From positions 1 to 35,775 of the IMG/VR virus record IMGVR_UViG_3300042554_000913: 35,775 bases of DNA; one strand, given 5' to 3'. Positions 276-35,775 of the stretch are shown piece after piece. The stretch comes from a virus. The position numbers and the translations under genes are program-made. The stretch's first letter is position 1, and each line of letters opens with the position of its first letter. A model generated the notes under the pieces. The model was not told where the DNA came from and made no database searches. It saw nothing but the letters and a program-made list of their open reading frames with translations.

Positions 276-482
276 TCAGCGAGCAAGCGAACGGATGTAG
301 GCATCTTGCGCAGCGTGGTACGTGTCCATTGCGCAGCGCATCGCGTCTTCCTTGTCGAACAAGTCAGTGGGATGCATGGTTTCGCTTTCCATCGCCTTCG
401 CCCATACGCGCTGAGCCATGAGCCACTTGAGCAATGCCAAGTCCATTGCTGCCTTCGCTGACAACTTCTTCTTCTGCGTCAT
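276..482 (-). CDS. Small early protein, 68 residues, unknown
   Basis: First protein gene of the early operon, directly after the structured RNA and its hairpin terminator. The ATG at 482 follows AGAAGG with good spacing; the frame runs further upstream, but that part overlaps the RNA and has no ribosome site. The N-terminus is lysine-rich (MTQKKKLSAKAAMDLALL), then an amphipathic helical segment and an acidic middle. No domain recognised. Position and size fit an early host-takeover protein, which is inference from context only. Confidence 0.65.
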   Translation of the reverse strand: MTQKKKLSAKAAMDLALLKWLMAQRVWAKAMESETMHPTDLFDKEDAMRCAMDTYHAAQDAYIRSLAR

Positions 483-537
483 GTCTAAGCCTTCTGCCCA
501 CTTGGGGCGGTTGAGTGTGATCCTCCACAGCGGAGGA
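483..537 (-). promoter_or_regulatory. Divergent copy of the early regulatory unit (leader of first gene)
   Basis: Contains the Shine-Dalgarno AGAAGG, a degenerate GCCCCAAGTGGGC hairpin, and at 521-537 an inverted repeat TCCTCC/GGAGGA placed where the other units carry CCTGCACCGTGCAGG. Order and spacing match copies A-D, so I treat it as a diverged copy with a different operator half-site. Confidence 0.5.
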
Positions 538-543
538 GAAACA

Positions 544-565
544 GGCGCGGCCCTTTGGCCGCGCC
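544..565 (-). terminator. Hairpin terminator or attenuator after the structured RNA
   Basis: On the minus strand a perfect 9-bp stem GGCGCGGCC/GGCCGCGCC encloses the loop AAAG and is followed by TGTTTCTCC. The U-run is short, so it may only partly terminate. It sits 22 nt after the 3' arm of the RNA closing helix, so it could end a free RNA or act as an attenuator before the early genes. Confidence 0.55.
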
Positions 566-587
566 CGAATGTCGTGCGCTGTGCTGT

Positions 588-1012
588 GTCGGTTCTTTGT
601 AACGCGGTCGCATCGCGTCTCGTTGTATGTACCAGTGCGCCTGTCGGAAGTTTCGTCTCCTCACATCCGTCCGGCGCTTGCGCGCGCTCCATCACTCGGC
701 AGCCGCCGCGCGCTGCGTTTACTCAACAGCGCATGAGTGATCCGGGACGATGATGCTTTGGAGCATCGTTCGTTCGCACTGGGTTGTCGGCAGCGGTGTC
801 GCTCTCATCGTTCGCTTCACCTTAGCACGCTGCAGGTCGGACTCGTATGGTCTGTCGCTTGTGGCCCCCCATACGCTCGATCTTGCCCTACTGCGGTCCT
901 ATCGGGTTGCGCGGCCCTCTCGGGGCGCGTCTTTCGCAGTCCTGCGCGAGGTTGCCCGCTCGGGGCTTGCTCGCTTGCGTCTCGCTTGCTGCCTAGATGT
1001 CAAAGAACCGAC
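588..1012 (-). ncRNA. Candidate large structured non-coding RNA (about 425 nt)
   Basis: No plausible protein is encoded here on either strand. The ends form a perfect 12-bp helix: GTCGGTTCTTTG at 1012-1001 pairs with CAAAGAACCGAC at 599-588. Further perfect stems inside: CGTATGG/CCATACG (875-869 with 850-844), GATGCT/AGCATC with a 4-nt loop (767-752), ATCACTC/GAGTGAT (741-735 with 697-691) enclosing GCGCTG/CAGCGC (732-727 with 715-710), and ACGCG/CGCGT (618-602). The predicted start from the upstream extended -10 is at about 1012, the first base of the closing helix, and a hairpin terminator follows. I see no RNase P, tmRNA or 6S core motifs. It could be a large ornate phage RNA of the GOLLD/ROOL kind, or a cis-acting antitermination leader like HK022 put. 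It heads the early operon. Confidence 0.6.
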
Positions 1013-1018
1013 TTGCAA

Positions 1019-1027
1019 AGTATAGCA
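1019..1027 (-). promoter_or_regulatory. Extended -10 promoter for the structured RNA and early operon
   Basis: The minus strand reads TGCTATACT at 1027-1019, an extended -10 element (TGN plus a near-consensus TATAAT box). No good -35 hexamer lies 16-18 bp upstream, as is common for extended -10 promoters. Transcription would begin near 1012. It sits in the only long gap between the last late gene (stop at 1080) and the first early gene, so it is the natural main early promoter. Confidence 0.6.
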
Positions 1028-1079: not shown

Positions 1080-1568
1080 TTACCAAAGCCCAGCCGGACA
1101 CCGCTCCCCGGCCAGCCGCTGCTTGGCGGCCAGCAGGCAACCGCATAGCCCGCACCGCCCGTCCTGCAGGTGCTCGCATGTCGCGCAGGTGGCGCGCCGC
1201 ATGTCCAGCGTGGCATCGTCGCACCGATCGATTCCTAGTGCCGCCTTCACCAGCCCGGTCGCGCCGTGCGTGACCGTCTGCGCCATCGTTGTTGGCTTCA
1301 TGCTGTCGGGCATGGGCGCAGTGGCTGCTGACATGTCATCCCACTTGCCCTGCGGGCAACGGGCGGTCTTGTGTGACGCGCCGATGGCTAGGCCCATGCG
1401 CCACGGCATGCGGTCCGGCATTACCGCGCAGCGTGGTCGCTCACCATCGTTGAACTGATCGCACGCCGCGCATCGCATCGCGCGTTCTTCGTAGACCGCC
1501 AGCGCGATGCCGCCCGGCGCTACTGCCTGTTGGCCGTTGATCGTGAGGATGATGCGGACCGGGCTCAT
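1080..1568 (-). CDS. Cysteine-cluster protein, probably metal-binding
   Basis: 162 residues and the last gene of the late operon. The ATG at 1568 overlaps the upstream stop as ATGA. It carries Cys pairs in the pattern of zinc sites: RCAAC near residue 33, a lone Cys and a CPQGKW motif near 47-75, and a C-terminal cluster with CATC, CGLCGC and ERCPAGLW. Phage proteins with repeated CxxC and CPxGxW motifs are common at the end of tail modules, but their role is not established to my knowledge. No membrane segment. Confidence 0.75.
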   Translation of the reverse strand: MSPVRIILTINGQQAVAPGGIALAVYEERAMRCAACDQFNDGERPRCAVMPDRMPWRMGLAIGASHKTARCPQGKWDDMSAATAPMPDSMKPTTMAQTVTHGATGLVKAALGIDRCDDATLDMRRATCATCEHLQDGRCGLCGCLLAAKQRLAGERCPAGLW

Positions 1569-20948: not shown

Positions 20949-21352
20949 TGTGGCCACTCCTTTAGATCGTCAAGGGTTACTACGATTGTTGCGCTGTCGG
21001 TCTCTTGCAAGGCCAACTCGACACACCCGGGCAACGAGCGCGCGCACTGATCGAGCAGCCATGCAGCTAGATTCTCTGCGCTGGTTGGCCAGCCGAATCG
21101 CACCGCGCTATGCCCGAGCGCATCACACAGCGGGTCTGCATCGGCTAGCAAGGTGCGATGGTCGAGGCTGTCAAAGATCGGTCGCAGCCGACCATCGATG
21201 TCGTCAAACAGCGTAGTGATGCCATGGTGCGTGTAGGCGAGGTCAAGGGTTACCTCGACTCCATACCGATGACCGTGCAGACGAGCGCACTTGTCGTTGA
21301 GCCCATCGTTACGGTGAGCCGCGTAGAACCGGTATCGACGCTTGATCTTCAT
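20945..21352 (-). CDS. queD: 6-carboxytetrahydropterin synthase
   Basis: 135 residues, T-fold enzyme acting between FolE and QueE. Zinc ligands His13, His26 and His28 lie in AAH and LHGHRYG, and the catalytic Cys22 in KCARLHGH. Further family signs are SLDHRTLL, PTSAENLAAWLL and ETDSATIVV. Length is normal. ATG at 21352 overlaps the glycosyltransferase stop as ATGA and has GAGGTGG upstream. A shorter, diverged relative is encoded at 22859-23182. Confidence 0.93.
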   Translation of the reverse strand: MKIKRRYRFYAAHRNDGLNDKCARLHGHRYGVEVTLDLAYTHHGITTLFDDIDGRLRPIFDSLDHRTLLADADPLCDALGHSAVRFGWPTSAENLAAWLLDQCARSLPGCVELALQETDSATIVVTLDDLKEWPH

Positions 21353-22404
21353 GCAACCACCTCTTGAAGGAAGCCCTTGATGCTGGAATCGTACTGCTGA
21401 CTCACGATAGCAGGCATAGGCTTTGGTTGATTCATGTTTGCTGCAAGGCGGCTTTGGCCTAGCAGATCATCTTCGCCGTACAGCCAGTCCGAAGGCGACA
21501 ATCCGGCGCGCTGCAAGTGGTTGCGGTAAGACAGTCGGTTTGGTGCGATGACTGGTACACCTAAGGCGACGGCTTCCAAGAAACTGTAGCCAAAGGTCTC
21601 TTGGTCTGCTCCTGACCATACCGCTCCGACGGTGGCCAACCAGTTGTAGTAGTTCGCCTTACTAGCGTGCTGGACGATCTCGATCCCGGATTCTTTACAC
21701 GCTGCTGCCATAGTGTTTGATACTTGTCCGTTAGTGCTAACAGCAAAGGTCCAACCGCTGCTCTTCATTTCGCGCGCCAAACGCATGAACTCCCAAGGAC
21801 GCTTCTCGTCTGCCCATCTATGGTTGAATGCAACGATGCGACGGCGTTCCTTGTGACCGTGCTGTGCTACCTCGGCGTGATCCCACGGCTGTCCGGCGGC
21901 AACGCCTTTGCCTTTCAAGGTAACATTGCGCGACACAAACTCGCGATGGTGGTCGCTCCCAAACGCGACTGCGTCAAAGATGCCTTCGAGCAGCATGACT
22001 TCAAAGCGGCGTCCCCATACACCTAACGATCTTGTCAGGTAGTCATGCGGATCGAAGCAGCCAGCGTGGTGCCAGCCTGCGAACCTCACCTGAAGACCAA
22101 GAAGATCGCACTGGCACTTCACAGTTTCAATGCCCGGAAACCATACATCTCCTACAAGGATGATGTCGCCACTGCTAACTGCGCCGGCACCAATGTCCTT
22201 CGTCAACTGCAAGAGTTGTTCAGTCTTCCACGCTGCTGTTCCGACTGTATCTAGCCATTGGCCGTGCTTGATGACTCCCGTAGATGTGTTGCCGCTAACG
22301 CGACGCCATGCAAGGTTGGTGCTTGCCAACGCTTGGCACACCCAGCGATCAACTTGCTCGGTGTACCGCTCGTGTAACGGCTCTAATGGCAGCCAATGGA
22401 TCAC
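21349..22404 (-). CDS. GT-B glycosyltransferase resembling tRNA-queuosine mannosyltransferase
   Basis: 351 residues from GTG 22404 (GTGA overlap with the gene before). The N-terminal half starts with HWLPLEPLHERYTEQV and includes HHAGCFDPHDYL. The C-terminal half has VAFNHRWADEKRPWEF (about 192-207) and TFGYSFLEAVALGVPVIAPN continuing RLSY (270-293). The FNHRW and NRLSY signatures are those I associate with the GTDC1/DUF3524 family, which mannosylates queuosine in tRNA, and the second motif is the nucleotide-sugar site of GT4-like enzymes. Lying between DpdA and QueD, it probably sugars a 7-deazaguanine base in phage DNA; the sugar and acceptor are unknown. The family link is by motif memory, not by search. 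Confidence 0.75.
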   Translation of the reverse strand: MIHWLPLEPLHERYTEQVDRWVCQALASTNLAWRRVSGNTSTGVIKHGQWLDTVGTAAWKTEQLLQLTKDIGAGAVSSGDIILVGDVWFPGIETVKCQCDLLGLQVRFAGWHHAGCFDPHDYLTRSLGVWGRRFEVMLLEGIFDAVAFGSDHHREFVSRNVTLKGKGVAAGQPWDHAEVAQHGHKERRRIVAFNHRWADEKRPWEFMRLAREMKSSGWTFAVSTNGQVSNTMAAACKESGIEIVQHASKANYYNWLATVGAVWSGADQETFGYSFLEAVALGVPVIAPNRLSYRNHLQRAGLSPSDWLYGEDDLLGQSRLAANMNQPKPMPAIVSQQYDSSIKGFLQEVVA

Positions 22405-22868
22405 AGGATGATCGCTTTGTCGTTGGCGTAATCCGCAGGCACAGTTACTTGGCCTTGGCTTACAGGAACTGTGATCATGTGATACGGCTCGCCTATTGAG
22501 ATCTCGTCGGTTGGTCGAAGTTGTGCGTGCCACTTACAGCCCCAAACACGAACCATAAGACGCACCTTCTCTGCCACTGGCAAAAGGAAGAATGCATCGA
22601 CTTGCTCCGCAGTCCTCCCGGCTGTTACTTGAATGTCCTTACTGCGTGCCCACGGCACAATTTCTTCCGCAGCCCATTCCCATGCTTCGAACTGTTCTGT
22701 TAGGAACAGATGTTCCGGCTCCTGTTCGACTACAGCTTGCCACTCGGCAAGAGAAAGTTCGCGTCGGATGATGGCAGTTCGTAATCCGAGACACACCTTG
22801 CCTTCTACTTCATCGCCAAGGAATGCAGGTGACTGATCTAGAGCCGAACACGGATGAGTCATGTCCAT
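22401..22868 (-). CDS. Modification-cassette protein of unknown function (155 residues)
   Basis: ATG at 22868 has AGGAG eight bases upstream and overlaps the end of the QueD-like gene by 10 bases; the stop overlaps the glycosyltransferase start. The sequence is acidic with many Trp and Glu residues (EQFEAWEWAAEEIVPWARSK) and a beta-like C-terminal half (VRVWGCKWHAQLRP, YHMITVPVSQGQVTVPADY). No signal peptide, membrane segment or known motif. Tight packing between DpdA, QueD-like and glycosyltransferase genes suggests a part in making or protecting the modified base. Confidence 0.75.
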   Translation of the reverse strand: MDMTHPCSALDQSPAFLGDEVEGKVCLGLRTAIIRRELSLAEWQAVVEQEPEHLFLTEQFEAWEWAAEEIVPWARSKDIQVTAGRTAEQVDAFFLLPVAEKVRLMVRVWGCKWHAQLRPTDEISIGEPYHMITVPVSQGQVTVPADYANDKAIIL

Positions 22869-23182
22869 ACTTCTGCTCCTTGCTTGCCGTCCTCAAGCAC
22901 GGCGCACCGCGCAAGCCGGTGCTGATTGCAGAGCCATGAAGCGATTTGTTCGCACGACAGAGTCCCGAAGTCGCCGCCAAAGTGCGCTTCTAATGACTCC
23001 CTCACTGCGTCTGCCAGGTCGAAGCACTCTACAGCACGATCTCCATGCGGCACCTCTTTCCACGCCGTGATGCAGAAGGTGTGCCGATGCTTGGCCCTTA
23101 AAAACGATTGACGCTCTGGAGCATCTGGCCAACAATGGACTCCAATCGCTTCAATCGATGCACAAACTAGTTGTCTGCTCAC
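22859..23182 (-). CDS. Small QueD-like (T-fold) protein
   Basis: 107 residues from GTG 23182, preceded by GGAGG six bases upstream; the frame is open further up but only this start has a ribosome site, and the gene overlaps the dpdA end. The order of motifs follows QueD in shortened form: GVHCWPDAPE, then HRHTF in place of HGHRY, a helix DLADAVRESLEAHFG, SCEQIASWL in place of PTSAENLAAWL, and CAVLEDGKQGAEV in place of the ET.SA strand. The first His and the upstream catalytic Cys context differ, so it may not be a carboxytetrahydropterin synthase. It could process a pterin or deazaguanine intermediate or scaffold QueD. Confidence 0.6.
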   Translation of the reverse strand: MSRQLVCASIEAIGVHCWPDAPERQSFLRAKHRHTFCITAWKEVPHGDRAVECFDLADAVRESLEAHFGGDFGTLSCEQIASWLCNQHRLARCAVLEDGKQGAEVWT

Positions 23183-24134
23183 GTAGCACCTCCAGCGTTT
23201 CTGATATACGGTCGAGTCTTTGCTTTGGCTTGACTTGGCACGCTCGGAACTCTGCCCTTGCTTTGTGGTAGTCGAAGCGGCCGTCAGCCAAAGAGTACCG
23301 CAGTCCGATGAGAATGCGCGCTGCTGCAATCCAGTTGCTAGCCGCCAAGAACACATTGACCCCGTGTCGTCGGGAATACACTGACCACAAGGCACACGCA
23401 GTCGATTGCGCGAACGCAACAAACGATGCTGCGCCTCGGTCGAATATCTGTTCGTCGTTGATGTCAGCCTTCGACATCCCGCAATCGCGTATCCACTCTT
23501 GCCATTCTGCAGAAATACCTTTGGCACGCCTTTCGGCTGTAGTGAAATACTTGATTCCGTTTCCGCGCGAGAAGCGACCGAATAAGCCGTAACGCTCTCC
23601 CGCAGAGTGTGTGCTTGAATCGCAACTCGTCAGGCCGAGCGAATACATCTCTGGCCACCGAATGTAGCCAAGCCCATGCAACTGCGCAGTCGGCGCAGCC
23701 GCATGGGCTTGTAGGTAGCGATTTTGAATCCACGCTTCTTTGCCGTGGAAGGTGCCCAGCGCACCTGCAATACAGATACGGCTGTTGATCTGCTGGAACT
23801 CTTGCAGCCGTGCATACGGTGCATCAACAGTAAGCACAGGCATTGGATTCACGCCTGCGTCGACCATTGCGTGCAGATTGCGGAGCGAGCCTTCCTCGTC
23901 CCCGATTACATCTAACTGAATGCATCCCCAGACTTGCGGCGAAGCGAGGTAATACTTGCAGGCCTCAATGTAGTTTGTGAGCCGGATTCGGACGCCTAAC
24001 CTATGCGCCGAGAACGCGCCGCTGTCGATGAGGACGCACGCTCCTTCTGTGTTCATCAGCCTGTGACACAGCGCAGATACTGTATTAGATCTGCCAGATA
24101 GATAGTGATATGAAAACAGCAGCGACGGGATCAT
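23151..24134 (-). CDS. dpdA: DpdA-type 7-deazaguanine transglycosylase (TGT-like)
   Basis: 327 residues. Related to tRNA-guanine transglycosylase but acts on DNA, exchanging guanine for a 7-deazaguanine base. LIDSGAFSAHRLG near residues 35-47 corresponds to the DSGGFQ active-site motif of TGT (catalytic Asp37). IQLDVIGDEEG carries further acidic residues. HGLGYIRWPEMYSLGLTSCD followed by SSTHSAG has the HxLGxxxxE...SxDS pattern of phage DpdA. Start ATG 24134 forms an ATGA overlap with the ParB-like gene; ATG 24158 has no spacing to its purine run. With FolE, QueD and QueE alongside, the assignment is strong. Confidence 0.88.
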   Translation of the reverse strand: MIPSLLFSYHYLSGRSNTVSALCHRLMNTEGACVLIDSGAFSAHRLGVRIRLTNYIEACKYYLASPQVWGCIQLDVIGDEEGSLRNLHAMVDAGVNPMPVLTVDAPYARLQEFQQINSRICIAGALGTFHGKEAWIQNRYLQAHAAAPTAQLHGLGYIRWPEMYSLGLTSCDSSTHSAGERYGLFGRFSRGNGIKYFTTAERRAKGISAEWQEWIRDCGMSKADINDEQIFDRGAASFVAFAQSTACALWSVYSRRHGVNVFLAASNWIAAARILIGLRYSLADGRFDYHKARAEFRACQVKPKQRLDRISETLEVLREQTTSLCID

Positions 24135-24724
24135 GACATTGACGCTACAGACGACCATCCTTCGCGATCAATCAAGGCTTCGATTGCCGCTTTGATCTTC
24201 GCCCGTGACGGCATGTCAGTCACCTTCACAACGATCTTTTCGGAGTATTGGACCTCACGCTCCGCAGCGTTTTGTTCCGGTGCTGCAAACTGTGACGGCC
24301 CGAGCAGTTGTGCTAGATCGCCTTCCGTGAATCCTGTTGCTTCGATGGCTATGCCATTGGCGGCAAGGTCGCGCAGCAGTAAGTCAAGGCCATCCAAGTC
24401 CCATCCGGCGAGTTCTGCAGTCCGGTTGTCTGCAACGGCATAGGCGGCTGCTTCAGCGCCTTGCAGCGTTGTGCGAACCACTGCCACTGTTGTCCAGCCG
24501 AGTTCTTTCGCTGCTTGGAGACGACCGTTGCCTGCCAACACCTTGTTGTCCATCGACACCAGTAGCGGCATCTGTTGGCCGAATCGCTGCAAGCTGGTTT
24601 TGAGCGCCGCAAGATTGCGTTCCGGATGCTTGCGAACATTGGTCGGATCAAGAACAAGTTCATCGATTCGCACTTGCTCATAGGTCAGCAGTTGGAGGTT
24701 GTGGTCCTTGGTCGTTCGTGCCAT
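24131..24724 (-). CDS. ParB-like nuclease-fold protein next to dpdA
   Basis: 197 residues. The N-terminal half is a ParB/Srx-type domain: RIDELVLDPTNVRKHPERNL, KTSLQRFGQQMPLLVSM, VLAGNGRLQAAKELGW (the GxxR/NGR box) and a following VADNRTAELAGWD. The C-terminal half is short and has no HTH I can see. ParB-like proteins (DpdB) accompany DpdA in bacterial 7-deazaguanine DNA islands, where they are needed for base insertion, so a helper role, for example an ATP-dependent or DNA-binding step, is plausible. The start could also be ATG 24736. Lies between the HNH gene and dpdA with overlaps on both sides. Confidence 0.8.
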   Translation of the reverse strand: MARTTKDHNLQLLTYEQVRIDELVLDPTNVRKHPERNLAALKTSLQRFGQQMPLLVSMDNKVLAGNGRLQAAKELGWTTVAVVRTTLQGAEAAAYAVADNRTAELAGWDLDGLDLLLRDLAANGIAIEATGFTEGDLAQLLGPSQFAAPEQNAAEREVQYSEKIVVKVTDMPSRAKIKAAIEALIDREGWSSVASMS

Positions 24725-25325
24725 GCCTAACACCATACTCTGTTGACCATCTGCTGGCTAGCCATGCTTGTTCGTCTGTTACGGCGTCTGGTATCGCGCC
24801 TACCTCGTGCGTTACTACGGGAATCTTCCATCTGCCTGCTGCCTGCTTGCACCAAGCCGCATCATCAAGGCTGATAGTCAACTTCAAGTCTGATAGCAGT
24901 CCTCCTGACCATGCGCTGATCACGCCTTCCGCAGCCGACAGCATGAGCCTATGTGCTTGCTGCCAACTGAACCTTGCCGCGGCTTGTCGTCGAATGACGC
25001 GCCAGTCAAAGCCTGCTACTGCTTCTGCATTCAACGACACACATATCAGCGTTAGGCTCGAGCGTTCTTTATTGCGCCGAGCCGAAAGGTCTGCGGGAGT
25101 CTTGACTGCGTCGTGACATCGCTTGCAAAGCGGTTGCAGGTTGTCGGTTGTGTTTGTGCCGCCGTCGCGAAGCGGGACAATGTGATCAACAACCGCCGCG
25201 GCTACGGTCCGTCCCGCTGCTAGGCATAAGCGACACAAGGGCTGCTCACGCAACAGCGCCATACGCTGCTTACGCCATGATGCGTCGTATGGCGACTGGC
25301 CGATCTTCGGTGGCTTGTATGGCAT
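24678..25325 (-). CDS. HNH endonuclease with C-terminal extension
   Basis: 215 residues. Residues 1-90 are a standard HNH nuclease: CRLC and CKRC zinc pairs, VVDHIVPLRDGG, and DNLQPLCKRCHDAVKT. Residues 95-215 are an added domain (SSLTLICVSLNAEAVAGFDW, KLTISLDDAAWCKQAAGRW) with no P-loop. It vaguely follows the outline of the kinase domain fused to HNH in some phages, perhaps degenerate. The ATG at 25325 overlaps the RusA stop as TGATG. Position at the head of the modification cassette, away from terS, raises the question whether it spares modified phage DNA and cuts unmodified DNA. Confidence 0.85.
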   Translation of the reverse strand: MPYKPPKIGQSPYDASWRKQRMALLREQPLCRLCLAAGRTVAAAVVDHIVPLRDGGTNTTDNLQPLCKRCHDAVKTPADLSARRNKERSSLTLICVSLNAEAVAGFDWRVIRRQAAARFSWQQAHRLMLSAAEGVISAWSGGLLSDLKLTISLDDAAWCKQAAGRWKIPVVTHEVGAIPDAVTDEQAWLASRWSTEYGVRHGTNDQGPQPPTADL

Positions 25326-25756
25326 CACTGGCCGGGCAAGTTGAAGCCCATCGGCTGAACCTTGATGCTCACGCAGTCGGAAGCAGAGTCGATCTTGCCG
25401 CTGGCCTTCTCGGCAACCTGCGCGTCATCAAGCCAGATCCCTGCCTCGGTCAAAGCGTCCATCACTGCCTTCTCTAAGTTGTCGAGGTCTGGGCGCGCGA
25501 TGCGCCAGCCACGGCTCTTGCGCCCGGTCTTCTTGAACGCGAACACGCACTCAAGGCGCACCGGGCCTTCGATCGGACCGCGCTTACGATGCTTCATGGC
25601 TTCTGCGATGATGGCCTGCCTGTACGCGTGGACTGGATGCGCACTCGGGATGTAGTGCTTGACGAAGCCGCCGCGTGCGGTCACGCTGTGACGCGGCTGC
25701 GCGACGGGCTTGACGTGGACCACGAAGTGGATCACTTCATCTGCGTCAGCATCCAT
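25325..25756 (-). CDS. rusA: RusA-like Holliday junction resolvase
   Basis: 143 residues. Resolves branched recombination or replication intermediates before packaging. The family motif [19 protein letters not shown] with catalytic aspartates is clear, followed by [11 protein letters not shown]. An N-terminal strand region ([20 protein letters not shown]) is typical. ATG at 25756 has a strong AGGAGG seven bases upstream. Overlaps the 74-residue gene before it by 25 bases and is coupled to the HNH gene after it. Confidence 0.92.
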
Positions 25757-29040: not shown

Positions 29041-29844
29041 TCAGCCGCGCTGTGCCTTCGGGATCAGATCCCACTGCCGCTTGCTAACCCATCCGCAGCC
29101 GCGACAGGTGTCGCAGCCACTGCCTTCGCAGATGGGGCAGACCTTGTACGGCATCGCCTGCTTCAAGGCGGTACGGGCGTTCTTGAGGTCCGCCTCCACC
29201 GACTGCGCATTGATGTAGTGCCCATGCGCAGTGCCTGCCACGCGCTGCACGGCCAGCAACGCATCATCGGTAGCCTTGATGGCGACCTCGACCGCCGCCT
29301 CTGCTGCCATCATGAGGCGGTCAACTTCACTGACCTCACCGATGTCCTCGGCGACCTCTAGGGCTTCATCGACCTGCGCTGCGATCTGCTGGTCAAGCGC
29401 CTCTGCTTCTTCGGCTTGCTTGGCGTGCAAGCGAACCATCTCGCGCGTTACCGCACAGTGCGCTGCGATGTCCGCATGACTTGACTCTGGTCGCGCCAGC
29501 AGCGCGAGCGCGACAGCGCGTCGCTTGTCCGCGTTCGTGCGGCGCACACCGTGCCGCAGGTTGGCCTGCGCAGCCAGCCAGATCGCGTCCATGCGGTTGC
29601 CTGTGGTGACCACGGCTGCGATGGTCTTCGCCTTCAAAGCCTTCGCGGCCATCACGCGGTGCCAGCCGTCCACGCAGTACAGCGTGGCACCGTCCTTGAC
29701 CACGGCGATAGGCGGGAACACCTCGCCTTCCTCCATGGCCACCTTGTAATCCTCCACTGCCTCTGCCGTGACCGACACGCGTGGCTGCATGTCTCGATCC
29801 AACACAATGTCCTTGACTTTCAACTGCTGTGTCTTGTCTGCCAT
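29041..29844 (-). CDS. ParB-like protein with HTH and zinc-finger end
   Basis: 267 residues. ParB N-terminal fold at about 5-100 (DIVLDRDMQPRVSVTAEAVE, EVFPPIAVVKDG, YCVDGWHRVMAAKAL), an HTH near 125-150 (SSHADIAAHCAVTREMVRL), a long acidic helical stretch, and a Cys cluster CPICEGSGCDTCRGCGW at the end, like a DnaJ-type zinc finger. Probably a DNA-binding regulator or replication/partition-like factor. The ATG at 29844 follows AGGACGCAG, the same ribosome site as the helicase gene. Distinct from the ParB-like protein at 24131. Confidence 0.8.
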   Translation of the reverse strand: MADKTQQLKVKDIVLDRDMQPRVSVTAEAVEDYKVAMEEGEVFPPIAVVKDGATLYCVDGWHRVMAAKALKAKTIAAVVTTGNRMDAIWLAAQANLRHGVRRTNADKRRAVALALLARPESSHADIAAHCAVTREMVRLHAKQAEEAEALDQQIAAQVDEALEVAEDIGEVSEVDRLMMAAEAAVEVAIKATDDALLAVQRVAGTAHGHYINAQSVEADLKNARTALKQAMPYKVCPICEGSGCDTCRGCGWVSKRQWDLIPKAQRG

Positions 29845-29867
29845 CTGCGTCCTGCAATCTTCCCGCA

Positions 29868-30104
29868 TCAGAACCCGAATGCTCCGCCCCCGACGAGCGG
29901 GGGCAACCGAGGGCGGAACAGTGCATCGTCACCGTCATGTCCTGCGCTCATCTCACCATTCTGCTGCAGACGATGCAGCCACCGCGTGAGCGCGTCGAGT
30001 GCGAAGCCTAGTGGCCTCGGCGCGAGGTAGGGGCGTGAGTCCTCGCGTCTTGCGTCATCGACCTTGACGAAGCCATGTCGGCTGGCTCCATGCGCCCCGC
30101 AGGG
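29868..30104 (-). pseudogene. Orphan open frame without start codon between ERF and ParB-like genes
   Basis: The 336-base gap 29845-30180 holds a frame open for 78 codons from the stop at 30107-30105 to TGA at 29868. It has no ATG, GTG or TTG near its beginning, but reads like protein (GFVKVDDARREDSRPYLAPR, ALDALTRWLHRLQQNGEM) with high-GC third positions. Out-of-frame ATGs at 30092 and 30077 open a 27-residue frame. A sequencing indel, a programmed frameshift or a decayed gene would each explain this. Its stop forms TGATG with an alternative ATG of the ParB-like gene. The gap also has a 7-bp GCCCCCG/CGGGGGC hairpin at 29886-29904. Confidence 0.35.
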
Positions 30105-30180: not shown

Positions 30181-30804
30181 TCAGGAGTCCTGTTCGTCGC
30201 GCTGACGGTTGATCCAGCCGTCAATGCGGGACATCAAAGCCTTTGGCCATTGCGCCATGTCCTCCGGCGCAGCAACGCCCTTGCTGCTCATCGCAGCGCG
30301 GAGCGCATCCACGGCCAGCCCGGCATCGTTCAGCCGCTTCCGCAGCGCAACTGCGCCACGGATGCCGATCAGTTCCGGGTCATGCGCCCGGTCATCGCGG
30401 CGGTCCACCTCCTGCTCGTCTTCGCGCGGCACGAGCAGCAAGTCCCGGAGCATGTATGACTGGCTGGTTGTGAGCGCGCCAGCCAGCGCCTTGTCGAATG
30501 GCCGACCCTTGTCCTCGATGATCGGCCAAGGCACAGGCCCGAGGGTCATCGGCTCCCCCAACCCGAGCGTGACGATGTAGGTGGACAGCACGAACGGCTG
30601 ACCGTCGCGCAGTTCGACGGTCCAACCGATGCGCGCGAACGCCAGTCCCGCGCTGTGGAGAGCGGCCCGGCAAGCGGACAGCATCCCTTCTGCGCTGGTG
30701 TAGGCGTATCGGTGGTGCTGGTTCACAGCGTCCTTGCCGACTGCGCTGATGGCCTGCTGCGCCTTGATCAAGGCCAGCCCGATGCTGTGGTGCTTCTCGC
30801 TCAT
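30181..30804 (-). CDS. ERF-family ssDNA annealing recombinase
   Basis: 207 residues. The opening MSEKHHSIGLALIKAQQAIS with HRYAYTSAEGMLSACRAAL matches the ERF pattern (HxYxY.s.e.i......L...GL), and ALAGALTTSQSYMLRDLLLV resembles the conserved ..A.T.a.kY.l..ll.. block. Such proteins anneal single strands during phage recombination. Paired with the exonuclease gene just before it, whose stop it overlaps as ATGA. C-terminal third is variable. Confidence 0.85.
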   Translation of the reverse strand: MSEKHHSIGLALIKAQQAISAVGKDAVNQHHRYAYTSAEGMLSACRAALHSAGLAFARIGWTVELRDGQPFVLSTYIVTLGLGEPMTLGPVPWPIIEDKGRPFDKALAGALTTSQSYMLRDLLLVPREDEQEVDRRDDRAHDPELIGIRGAVALRKRLNDAGLAVDALRAAMSSKGVAAPEDMAQWPKALMSRIDGWINRQRDEQDS

Positions 30805-31709
30805 GGCTGGCCTCCGCGCTTCGTGCGGACCGTTGCGCGCTGGTGCGACGATGGCCGCATGTACGGCTCCGCGAGGTCCGGGTGATCCGCGCGAAACTGC
30901 TTCGCGTCGAATCGCTCCGTGCTGACCTCGCTGATGGTGACCGTGTAGCCGCCGCCCTCGCCGCGCAGGCTAGTGCCGAGCGCGGTAAGCAACCGCGCGC
31001 GCGCGCCGTCAGCCACCTCCTGCGCTGCGGCCAGCGCCTTGCGCGCGCCGTCGTCGGCCACGAACAGCGCGGGATCGATGCTGACCGTAGGCCCGTCCTG
31101 CTTGCGCAGGCGCTTGGCGACCTCAAGCGAGGCTACTGCGTCCGGCGGCGTGTCTTCGGTCACGCGCTGCCAGAACGCGTCCACGCGGTCGATGATGTGG
31201 GCGGCGTAGTCCGCGTCCCACTCGACACGGTGCAACTGGAACCGCAAGCCACGGTCCCCCATGAGCACGCCGACCCATGCGCGATCCGATGACGCGCACG
31301 CCATCTGATACATGACCTGCGCCTTGACGGCCTCCGGGACATCAGGACTGCCGTCCTCGCCCCACTCATCGGTGCGGCCCGTGGTCTTGGCCTCCACGAT
31401 TGGCGCGCCGCGCTTGGCTTGCCCCACCATTCCATCGATGTTGGCTCGATGGTGCGCCTTCGCACCGACGAAGGTGCTGGACGGCGACACTACGCGCGCC
31501 TCCAGCCGCTCGCCTGCCAACTTCAGAATCACTGGCTCCAGCGCGGACCCCATAGCCATCGCCATGTTCTCCGGCTGCGGTTCCGCCCGGCCCGTGCGGA
31601 CGAGCCACAGGTCCATCGGCGTGGACCATGGGCTGATGCCAAGAATCGTCGGAACATCCGACGATCCGATGCCGCGCTCGCGCGCGGCCCGTTGCGTTTC
31701 AGTAATCAC
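30801..31709 (-). CDS. YqaJ-type viral recombinase / exonuclease
   Basis: 302 residues. Motifs of the lambda-exonuclease-like nuclease fold: REARERGIG-like start with RGIGSSDVPTILGISPWS, MGSALEPVILKL (Glu), NIDGMV (Asp) and IVEAKTT (Glu-x-Lys), then QVMYQMACA. Resects DNA ends to feed the ERF annealing protein. Start is GTG at 31709, with AAGGA nine bases upstream and a GTGA overlap with the HTH gene. The C-terminal 120 residues are helical with an Ala/Arg-rich stretch. Confidence 0.88.
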   Translation of the reverse strand: MITETQRAARERGIGSSDVPTILGISPWSTPMDLWLVRTGRAEPQPENMAMAMGSALEPVILKLAGERLEARVVSPSSTFVGAKAHHRANIDGMVGQAKRGAPIVEAKTTGRTDEWGEDGSPDVPEAVKAQVMYQMACASSDRAWVGVLMGDRGLRFQLHRVEWDADYAAHIIDRVDAFWQRVTEDTPPDAVASLEVAKRLRKQDGPTVSIDPALFVADDGARKALAAAQEVADGARARLLTALGTSLRGEGGGYTVTISEVSTERFDAKQFRADHPDLAEPYMRPSSHQRATVRTKRGGQP

Positions 31710-35424: not shown

Positions 35425-35775
35425 TCAGTAGCCGCTGGCGATGCGGCGCGTCACCTTCTGCGCAACGACGTCCATCGTGCGGCGCATGAACTGGCTGCGA
35501 GTGTGCTTCACAGCGTTCGTCTGCAGGCCCGCATGGTCACGCAGCATGTCCGTGGACGGCACGCTGCCCCACGGAATGGTGACACCGATCTCCTTGAGGA
35601 AGGCGAGGCGCCAATGCCATTCCTTCGCGTTCTCGGCGGTCAACTCGGACAGGTCCACCAGCATGGTGGTCCAGATCAGCGCGTGCATGTTCTCGGTGAG
35701 CAGGCGCTCACCAGCAGCGAGGTTCTGCTCCTTGCGCTCGGCCTCGGTAGCCGGGCGAGTGACGAAAGCGTGGTC
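35425..35775 (-). CDS. Small early protein, C-terminal part (continues at 24-179)
   Basis: Residues 11-126 of the protein whose N-terminus is at 150-179. After the shared repeat region it reads MLVDLSELTAENAKEWHWRL, then IPWGSVPSTDMLRDHAG and a basic end (RSQFMRRTMDVVAQKVTRRI). Helical and charged, without known motif. Stop at 35425 is followed by regulatory unit B. The internal ATG at 35688 is not a separate start. Confidence 0.8.
   Translation of the reverse strand, partial: DHAFVTRPATEAERKEQNLAAGERLLTENMHALIWTTMLVDLSELTAENAKEWHWRLAFLKEIGVTIPWGSVPSTDMLRDHAGLQTNAVKHTRSQFMRRTMDVVAQKVTRRIASGY
35650..35775. repeat. Direct terminal repeat, right copy (126 bp)
   Basis: Identical to 24-149. Here it is preceded by the true continuation of the split gene, which shows that the left-end bases 1-23 are foreign to this position. 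Confidence 0.85.

Follow-up and report, generated by a model that had tools for sequence, protein, structure and literature searches.

What is encoded at the point of this phage genome where the tail genes end and the early genes begin, in a stretch left empty by gene calling, and what does it do there? The window, meaning the whole stretch of DNA that was analysed, is the complete virus record IMGVR_UViG_3300042554_000913 (35,775 bases). From its letters, the original prediction had proposed that an undescribed large structured RNA heads the early operon, and had offered two guesses for its role, an ornate trans-acting RNA or an antitermination leader.

The final 124 nt of the record (35652-35775) are a copy of nt 26-149, and this terminal repeat makes the genome circular as sampled, although the record is classed as having no end repeats. 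An inverted repeat links nt 1-25 to nt 47-71, and the former segment has the look of an assembly artefact. A codon-usage gene caller returned 47 genes, every one of them on the minus strand, with 483-1079 left empty. With the circle closed, the tail genes are followed on this strand by a 162-aa gene, the noncoding stretch and small early genes, and then by recombination genes, helicase and terminase; the noncoding stretch therefore sits at the tail/early junction and heads the early genes, as the original prediction had it. The landmark genes around this junction are:

1080-1568, minus strand: 162-aa cysteine-rich gene, adjoining the RNA upstream and lying outside it; syntenic marker
276-482, minus strand: first early gene, 68 aa, from the gene caller, 106 nt after the closing helix (P1) of the RNA
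30801-31709, minus strand: RecE/YqaJ, early-side gene downstream of the RNA
30181-30804, minus strand: ERF, recombination gene
29041-29868, minus strand: ParB-like gene, between ERF and the helicase in the gene order

The 162-aa gene has a 96% identical homologue in the viral contig L069 and weaker ones beside the RNA in the related contigs G010 and G011. The first early gene has no Pfam or PHROG match, and no tRNA or tmRNA genes were found in the window. Elsewhere in the window, positions 21000-25500 have a G+C content of 55-57%, as compared to about 64%, and carry a weak glycosyltransferase-like match; the gene caller left 21997-23150 empty within this lower-G+C stretch, which may have been recently acquired.

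No gene is evident in the predicted stretch of about 425 nt, whose open frames are no longer than those of shuffled sequences. The stretch is enclosed by the predicted inverted repeat, which is exact: GTCGGTTCTTTG (1012-1001) pairs perfectly with CAAAGAACCGAC (599-588) on the minus strand, with 401 nt between the arms. A perfect repeat of at least 12 bp enclosing 100 nt or more arose in 7 of 1000 dinucleotide shuffles of the 600-nt region and in 3 of 1000 shuffles of 544-1027, so that the earlier chance estimate of about 1 in 100 was about right. From 5' to 3', the elements of the RNA and its borders are:

1019-1027, minus strand: extended -10 promoter TGCTATACT, from a sigma-70 scan; predicted start near 1012
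1001-1012, minus strand: P1 5' arm, from the perfect 12-bp inverted repeat; pair probability 0.98-1.0; covaries across eight lineages
998-1006, minus strand: boxA-like element TCTTTGACA, overlapping the P1 5' arm; the only 9-mer, and the longest word, common to the eight lineages
988-993, minus strand: P2 5' arm GGCAGC; pair probability 1.0; P2 is also present in consensus folds
795-987, minus strand: first structured domain, inside P2, predicted from the window sequence by itself (for example hairpin 875-869/850-844)
789-794, minus strand: P2 3' arm GCTGCC, on the same basis as the 5' arm
600-788, minus strand: second structured domain, from P2 to the P1 3' arm, predicted in the same way (for example 782-775/639-632 and 741-735/697-691)
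588-599, minus strand: P1 3' arm, on the same basis as the 5' arm
532-567, minus strand: terminator-like GC hairpin (567-542) with tail TTTCTCCTCC, the only such site on that strand within 1-1600

The inner helices of this fold have varying pair probabilities and are less certain than P1 and P2. We rejected the folding energy (z = -3.1) as proof of a structured RNA: segments elsewhere in this GC-rich genome get to -3.0, so that energy alone proves nothing and the proof is carried by homologues.

Viral contigs with related terminases were therefore collected and gene-mapped for the tail/early junction. Relatives having a terminase show 68-73% identity to that of the window. Long noncoding gaps were found at the junction in G010/G011, G017, G021, G022 and G023/G024, and sequence comparison added G009, L222 and L229 as carriers of the RNA. 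At 360-510 nt, these noncoding RNAs occupy a position equivalent to that of the window RNA, and they form a type A (G009, G010/G011, L222 and G017) and a type B (G021, G022, L229 and G023/G024). The window RNA is a third type with no similarity in sequence to types A and B outside a 5' motif; its membership is well supported by position, a shared 9-mer, P1, and P2, which lies at the equivalent place in the window fold and in the separate consensus folds of both types. Two further gaps that looked noncoding were set aside, since that of G014 looks like a tail gene and the first one in G021 (24943-25533) like the cysteine-rich gene. Profile searches of the fetched genomes yielded no further members, and the window RNA, one type A RNA and one type B RNA had no relative among 50,697 phage records. 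Type B RNA was also searched for in 385 Alphaproteobacteria genomes, with no match in a search run without a positive control. Pattern scans for window-type RNA gave no homologue, the two extra matches examined, L251 and L252, being rejected for lack of homology.

The original prediction had staked the RNA on compensatory changes among related phages, and such changes were found both inside types A and B and, across types, in P1. In type B, 24 of 113 predicted pairs have compensatory changes (9.2 ± 2.2 in shuffled controls), 97.5% of cells are paired, and sliding the structure yields only 1-3 compensatory pairs; the type A values are 22 of 124 pairs (6.6 ± 2.1 shuffled), 93.5% and 1-7. These counts are 2.6-3.3 times the shuffled controls, in small sets of 4 and 5 distinct rows and with structures derived from the same alignments (398 and 549 columns). 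Across the eight lineages, the window included, P1 shows 21 double-change cells as compared to 7.9 ± 2.0 (no shuffle reaches 21), in an alignment that was adjusted manually to the pairing register, leaving out one bulged L222 base. The number of P1 pairs having a double change (7, versus 5.2 shuffled) is not unusual by itself, and P1 is weak in G017. That types A and B are structured RNAs seems to us nearly certain, and it is very probable that the window copy is the same kind of RNA.

A conserved protein frame, which the original prediction had named as evidence to the contrary, was looked for as well and not found. Types A and B do have one antisense frame open over nearly the whole length. 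The RNA strand is U-poor, however, with 9-15% U (L153:87-577, L156:36-432 and the other RNA loci), so that long open antisense frames are expected (p = 0.2-0.8 in shuffles). In type A, 1-nt indels are common, and substitutions in homologues have no codon-position bias. An antisense protein-coding gene was rejected on these three grounds. Open antisense frames on such U-poor RNAs could mislead gene callers.

The Rfam covariance search that had been proposed, with GOLLD and ROOL among its families, gave no gathering-level match in the window, a relaxed threshold returning chance-level unrelated families only, and none in seven loci of homologues, with E values up to 5 allowed. Literature searches found no description of such an RNA, which does not prove that none exists. 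With homologues at the same junction and compensatory changes, the description as an undescribed large structured RNA holds.

The P1 5' arm begins 7 nt after the TATACT of TGCTATACT, which is preceded by the extended TGC; the extended -10 box said to set transcription to start near 1012, on the first base of P1, is thus present in the sequence. No other promoter-like site was detected along the transcribed strand of the window, where 3.3 are expected from shuffling, and the opposite strand has 0 sites passing the sigma-70 scan. The only passing site on the transcribed strand of G009 and of G022 is likewise the one before the RNA. The strong hairpin expected after the end of the helix was found at 567-542; it is terminator-like, with a tail reading TTTCTCC. 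The scan shows no promoter-like site between the RNA and the first early gene of the window, so that this gene needs read-through past the hairpin. Four terminator-like hairpins lie downstream of the RNA on the transcribed strand of G009.

A different arrangement is seen in G001 (contig L069), where the tail proteins next to the site are 96-100% identical to those of the window and the RNA is absent. Its early region (L069:5480-8400) instead has four TGGACA-16-TATACT promoters before small early genes, a single case, with other relatives less clear. These promoters are accompanied by GC-rich repeats (GGGCGCCGGCGGGC...). An intergenic module made up of a GC hairpin, a second hairpin, a CCGCCCC..GGGGC hairpin and a ribosome site is repeated before several early genes of both the window phage (193-274 and 480-540) and L069 (6537-6616 and 8142-8219); it is possibly an element for RNA processing, protection or termination.

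Comparison of the RNAs retrieved UCUUUGACA, located at the 5' end, as the only 9-mer common to all eight lineages, and TCTTTGACA occurs only sporadically elsewhere in the fetched genomes. A 7-mer, GACCTGC, is also common to all lineages and was dropped for its inconsistent places; the TTGACA of the shared motif was rejected as a -35 box, as no -10 lies at 15-19 nt. The closest terminase among 84,980 species genomes (57%) comes from a Rhodobacteraceae MAG, on a contig of 4 kb, for which reason alphaproteobacterial rRNA leaders were compared: 4 of the 19 leaders contain TCTTTGACA exactly (shuffle p of 0.005 or less) and 6 of the 19 with one mismatch, in a clade that was chosen on the weak host hint of that one contig and may not be the host's. 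The published gammaproteobacterial boxA consensus is GYTCTTTAANA (PMC5725501). Within P1 the boxA letters are invariant and their partners drift to G-U or mismatches, the pattern expected if the word itself is read. UCUUUGACA is probably a boxA of the type seen in rRNA leaders.

With 425 nt and no translation, the leader would be exposed to Rho. The boxA identity, the lone promoter-like site, the hairpins before the first gene and the contrast with G001 together lead us to infer an rrn-like antitermination start. Our favoured reading, held with moderate confidence, is that a boxA-led, closed structured RNA heads the early transcript and is made via an rRNA-type Nus antitermination complex. The RNA would form the 5' end of the early transcript, with boxA in its first nucleotides, and NusB-S10 would bind boxA on the nascent RNA and load the Nus complex on RNA polymerase. 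The polymerase so equipped would traverse this RNA, which is untranslated and open to Rho, together with the hairpins that follow, and enter the early genes; as the 3' end emerges, P1 would close the RNA into one domain, as the leader-trailer helix of pre-rRNA does. BoxA has been described as necessary and sufficient for recruiting rrn antitermination factors (PMC10250234) and often precedes long noncoding RNAs and CRISPR arrays (PMC7862264). Rrn-type antitermination is accordingly predicted as the job of the RNA, with odds that we judge to be somewhat in its favour, and the match to rRNA leaders suggests that the phage may borrow the host's rRNA antitermination machinery. The antitermination guess of the original prediction is thereby favoured by a boxA-identical 5' end that it had missed.

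Several observations weigh against this antitermination reading. The phage boxA is not single-stranded upstream of the closing helix, as in rrn leaders, but lies partly inside the P1 5' arm, so that a bound boxA and a closed P1 may be mutually exclusive; boxA may be free before P1 closes. There is no excess of intrinsic terminators in the rest of the window's early region or in G010. In addition, the RNA promoters of six relatives (G010, G011, G017, G021, G023 and G024) fail the sigma-70 scan, and G017 has the weak P1.

The closest competitor, a real possibility to which we give somewhat less than even chances, is a free-standing trans-acting ornate RNA like GOLLD or ROOL, which would end or be cut at the hairpin after P1, accumulate early and act on host or phage components. 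BoxA would then serve only to ensure completion of the long untranslated transcript, and both explanations can be true together. The elaborate closed fold with its covarying inner helices, the terminator-like hairpin that comes straight after P1 in both the window and G009, and the different first genes downstream of the RNA in different lineages all fit a free RNA. Against it, the RNA promoter is the only one available to the first early gene, which means that transcription has to continue beyond the RNA as well; the type B hairpin behind P1 has no clear U-tract; and the primary sequence is almost wholly different between types. What stands of the original trans-acting guess is its compatibility with the covarying closed fold, and a released trans-acting product alongside the antitermination role is a possibility of the same, slightly less than even, order. 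More doubtful still is a family of ornate RNAs in phages by which the host route for antitermination and folding of rRNA, with boxA, NusB-S10 and the closing helix, would be redirected, early in infection, to the production of a stable trans-acting RNA. We know of no described precedent for a phage RNA class using that route for a trans-acting product.

Unlikely, in our view, is a long 5' UTR, folded solely for protection of the early mRNA or for translational control of the first gene, with no antitermination and with UCUUUGACA as some other binding site. The RNA and the first early gene are contiguous, and hairpin modules recur before early genes; yet it would then be by coincidence that the word is identical to boxA of rRNA leaders and keeps a fixed place where the transcript starts, and the first gene is not conserved, so that no common regulated gene is seen. 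An opposite-strand protein gene or a DNA element, for instance an origin of replication, already disfavoured and highly improbable, could draw on the nearly full-length antisense frame of types A and B and on the site being a module boundary, but the frames are expected from the low U content given above, the type A indels and the lack of codon-position bias speak against coding, pair-preserving changes require an RNA fold or a cruciform, and an origin would have to do without a GC-skew switch at the site (a weak test).

Among known systems, the rrn leader is alike in having a boxA, identical to that of several alphaproteobacterial leaders, near the transcript start and before a long untranslated RNA closed by a long-range helix. 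It differs in that its boxA is upstream of the leader-trailer helix instead of overlapping it, and the phage RNA is not rRNA and, at about 425 nt, stands at the head of an early operon in a phage. CRISPR arrays led by boxA, where boxA is thought to prevent Rho termination (Stringer et al. 2020, cited in PMC7862264), also have boxA before a long noncoding transcript, whereas the phage transcript lacks repeats and spacers, has an extensive fold and is predicted to continue into genes. GOLLD, ROOL and OLE are large, elaborately folded ornate RNAs, of which GOLLD and ROOL are borne by phages or prophages and have no known function; a ROOL example has 659 nt and GOLLD often exceeds 800 nt (PMC12286853). 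Our RNA shares with all three a large elaborate noncoding fold, and with GOLLD and ROOL the phage setting. It differs from GOLLD and ROOL in size (360-510 nt) and in matching no Rfam family, and the window has no tRNA genes, whereas those RNAs are often near tRNA islands.

In the lambda nut/N system, too, a boxA RNA lies near the start of a phage early transcript; in the window, boxA is followed by the long-range helix P2 and not by a local boxB hairpin, and the RNA is much larger. No N-like gene was recognised in the window, where the first gene has no Pfam or PHROG match and N-type proteins are too variable for one to be excluded. HK022 put is a small two-hairpin RNA that promotes read-through at the start of phage early transcripts and needs no Nus site. 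A read-through role at that place is what we propose for our RNA, which differs from put, as described, in its length of about 425 nt, its many helices and its boxA. The antitermination leaders known to us are all far smaller, a further point against the antitermination reading. To our knowledge this would be the first large structured phage RNA that begins with an rRNA-type boxA. The list of large structured RNAs known from phages is short, and this one would extend it. BoxA, NusB and S10 give a concrete handle on how it would be made and why it heads the early operon. A phage, this suggests, may be able to exploit the rRNA antitermination route of its host with no need for an N-type protein.
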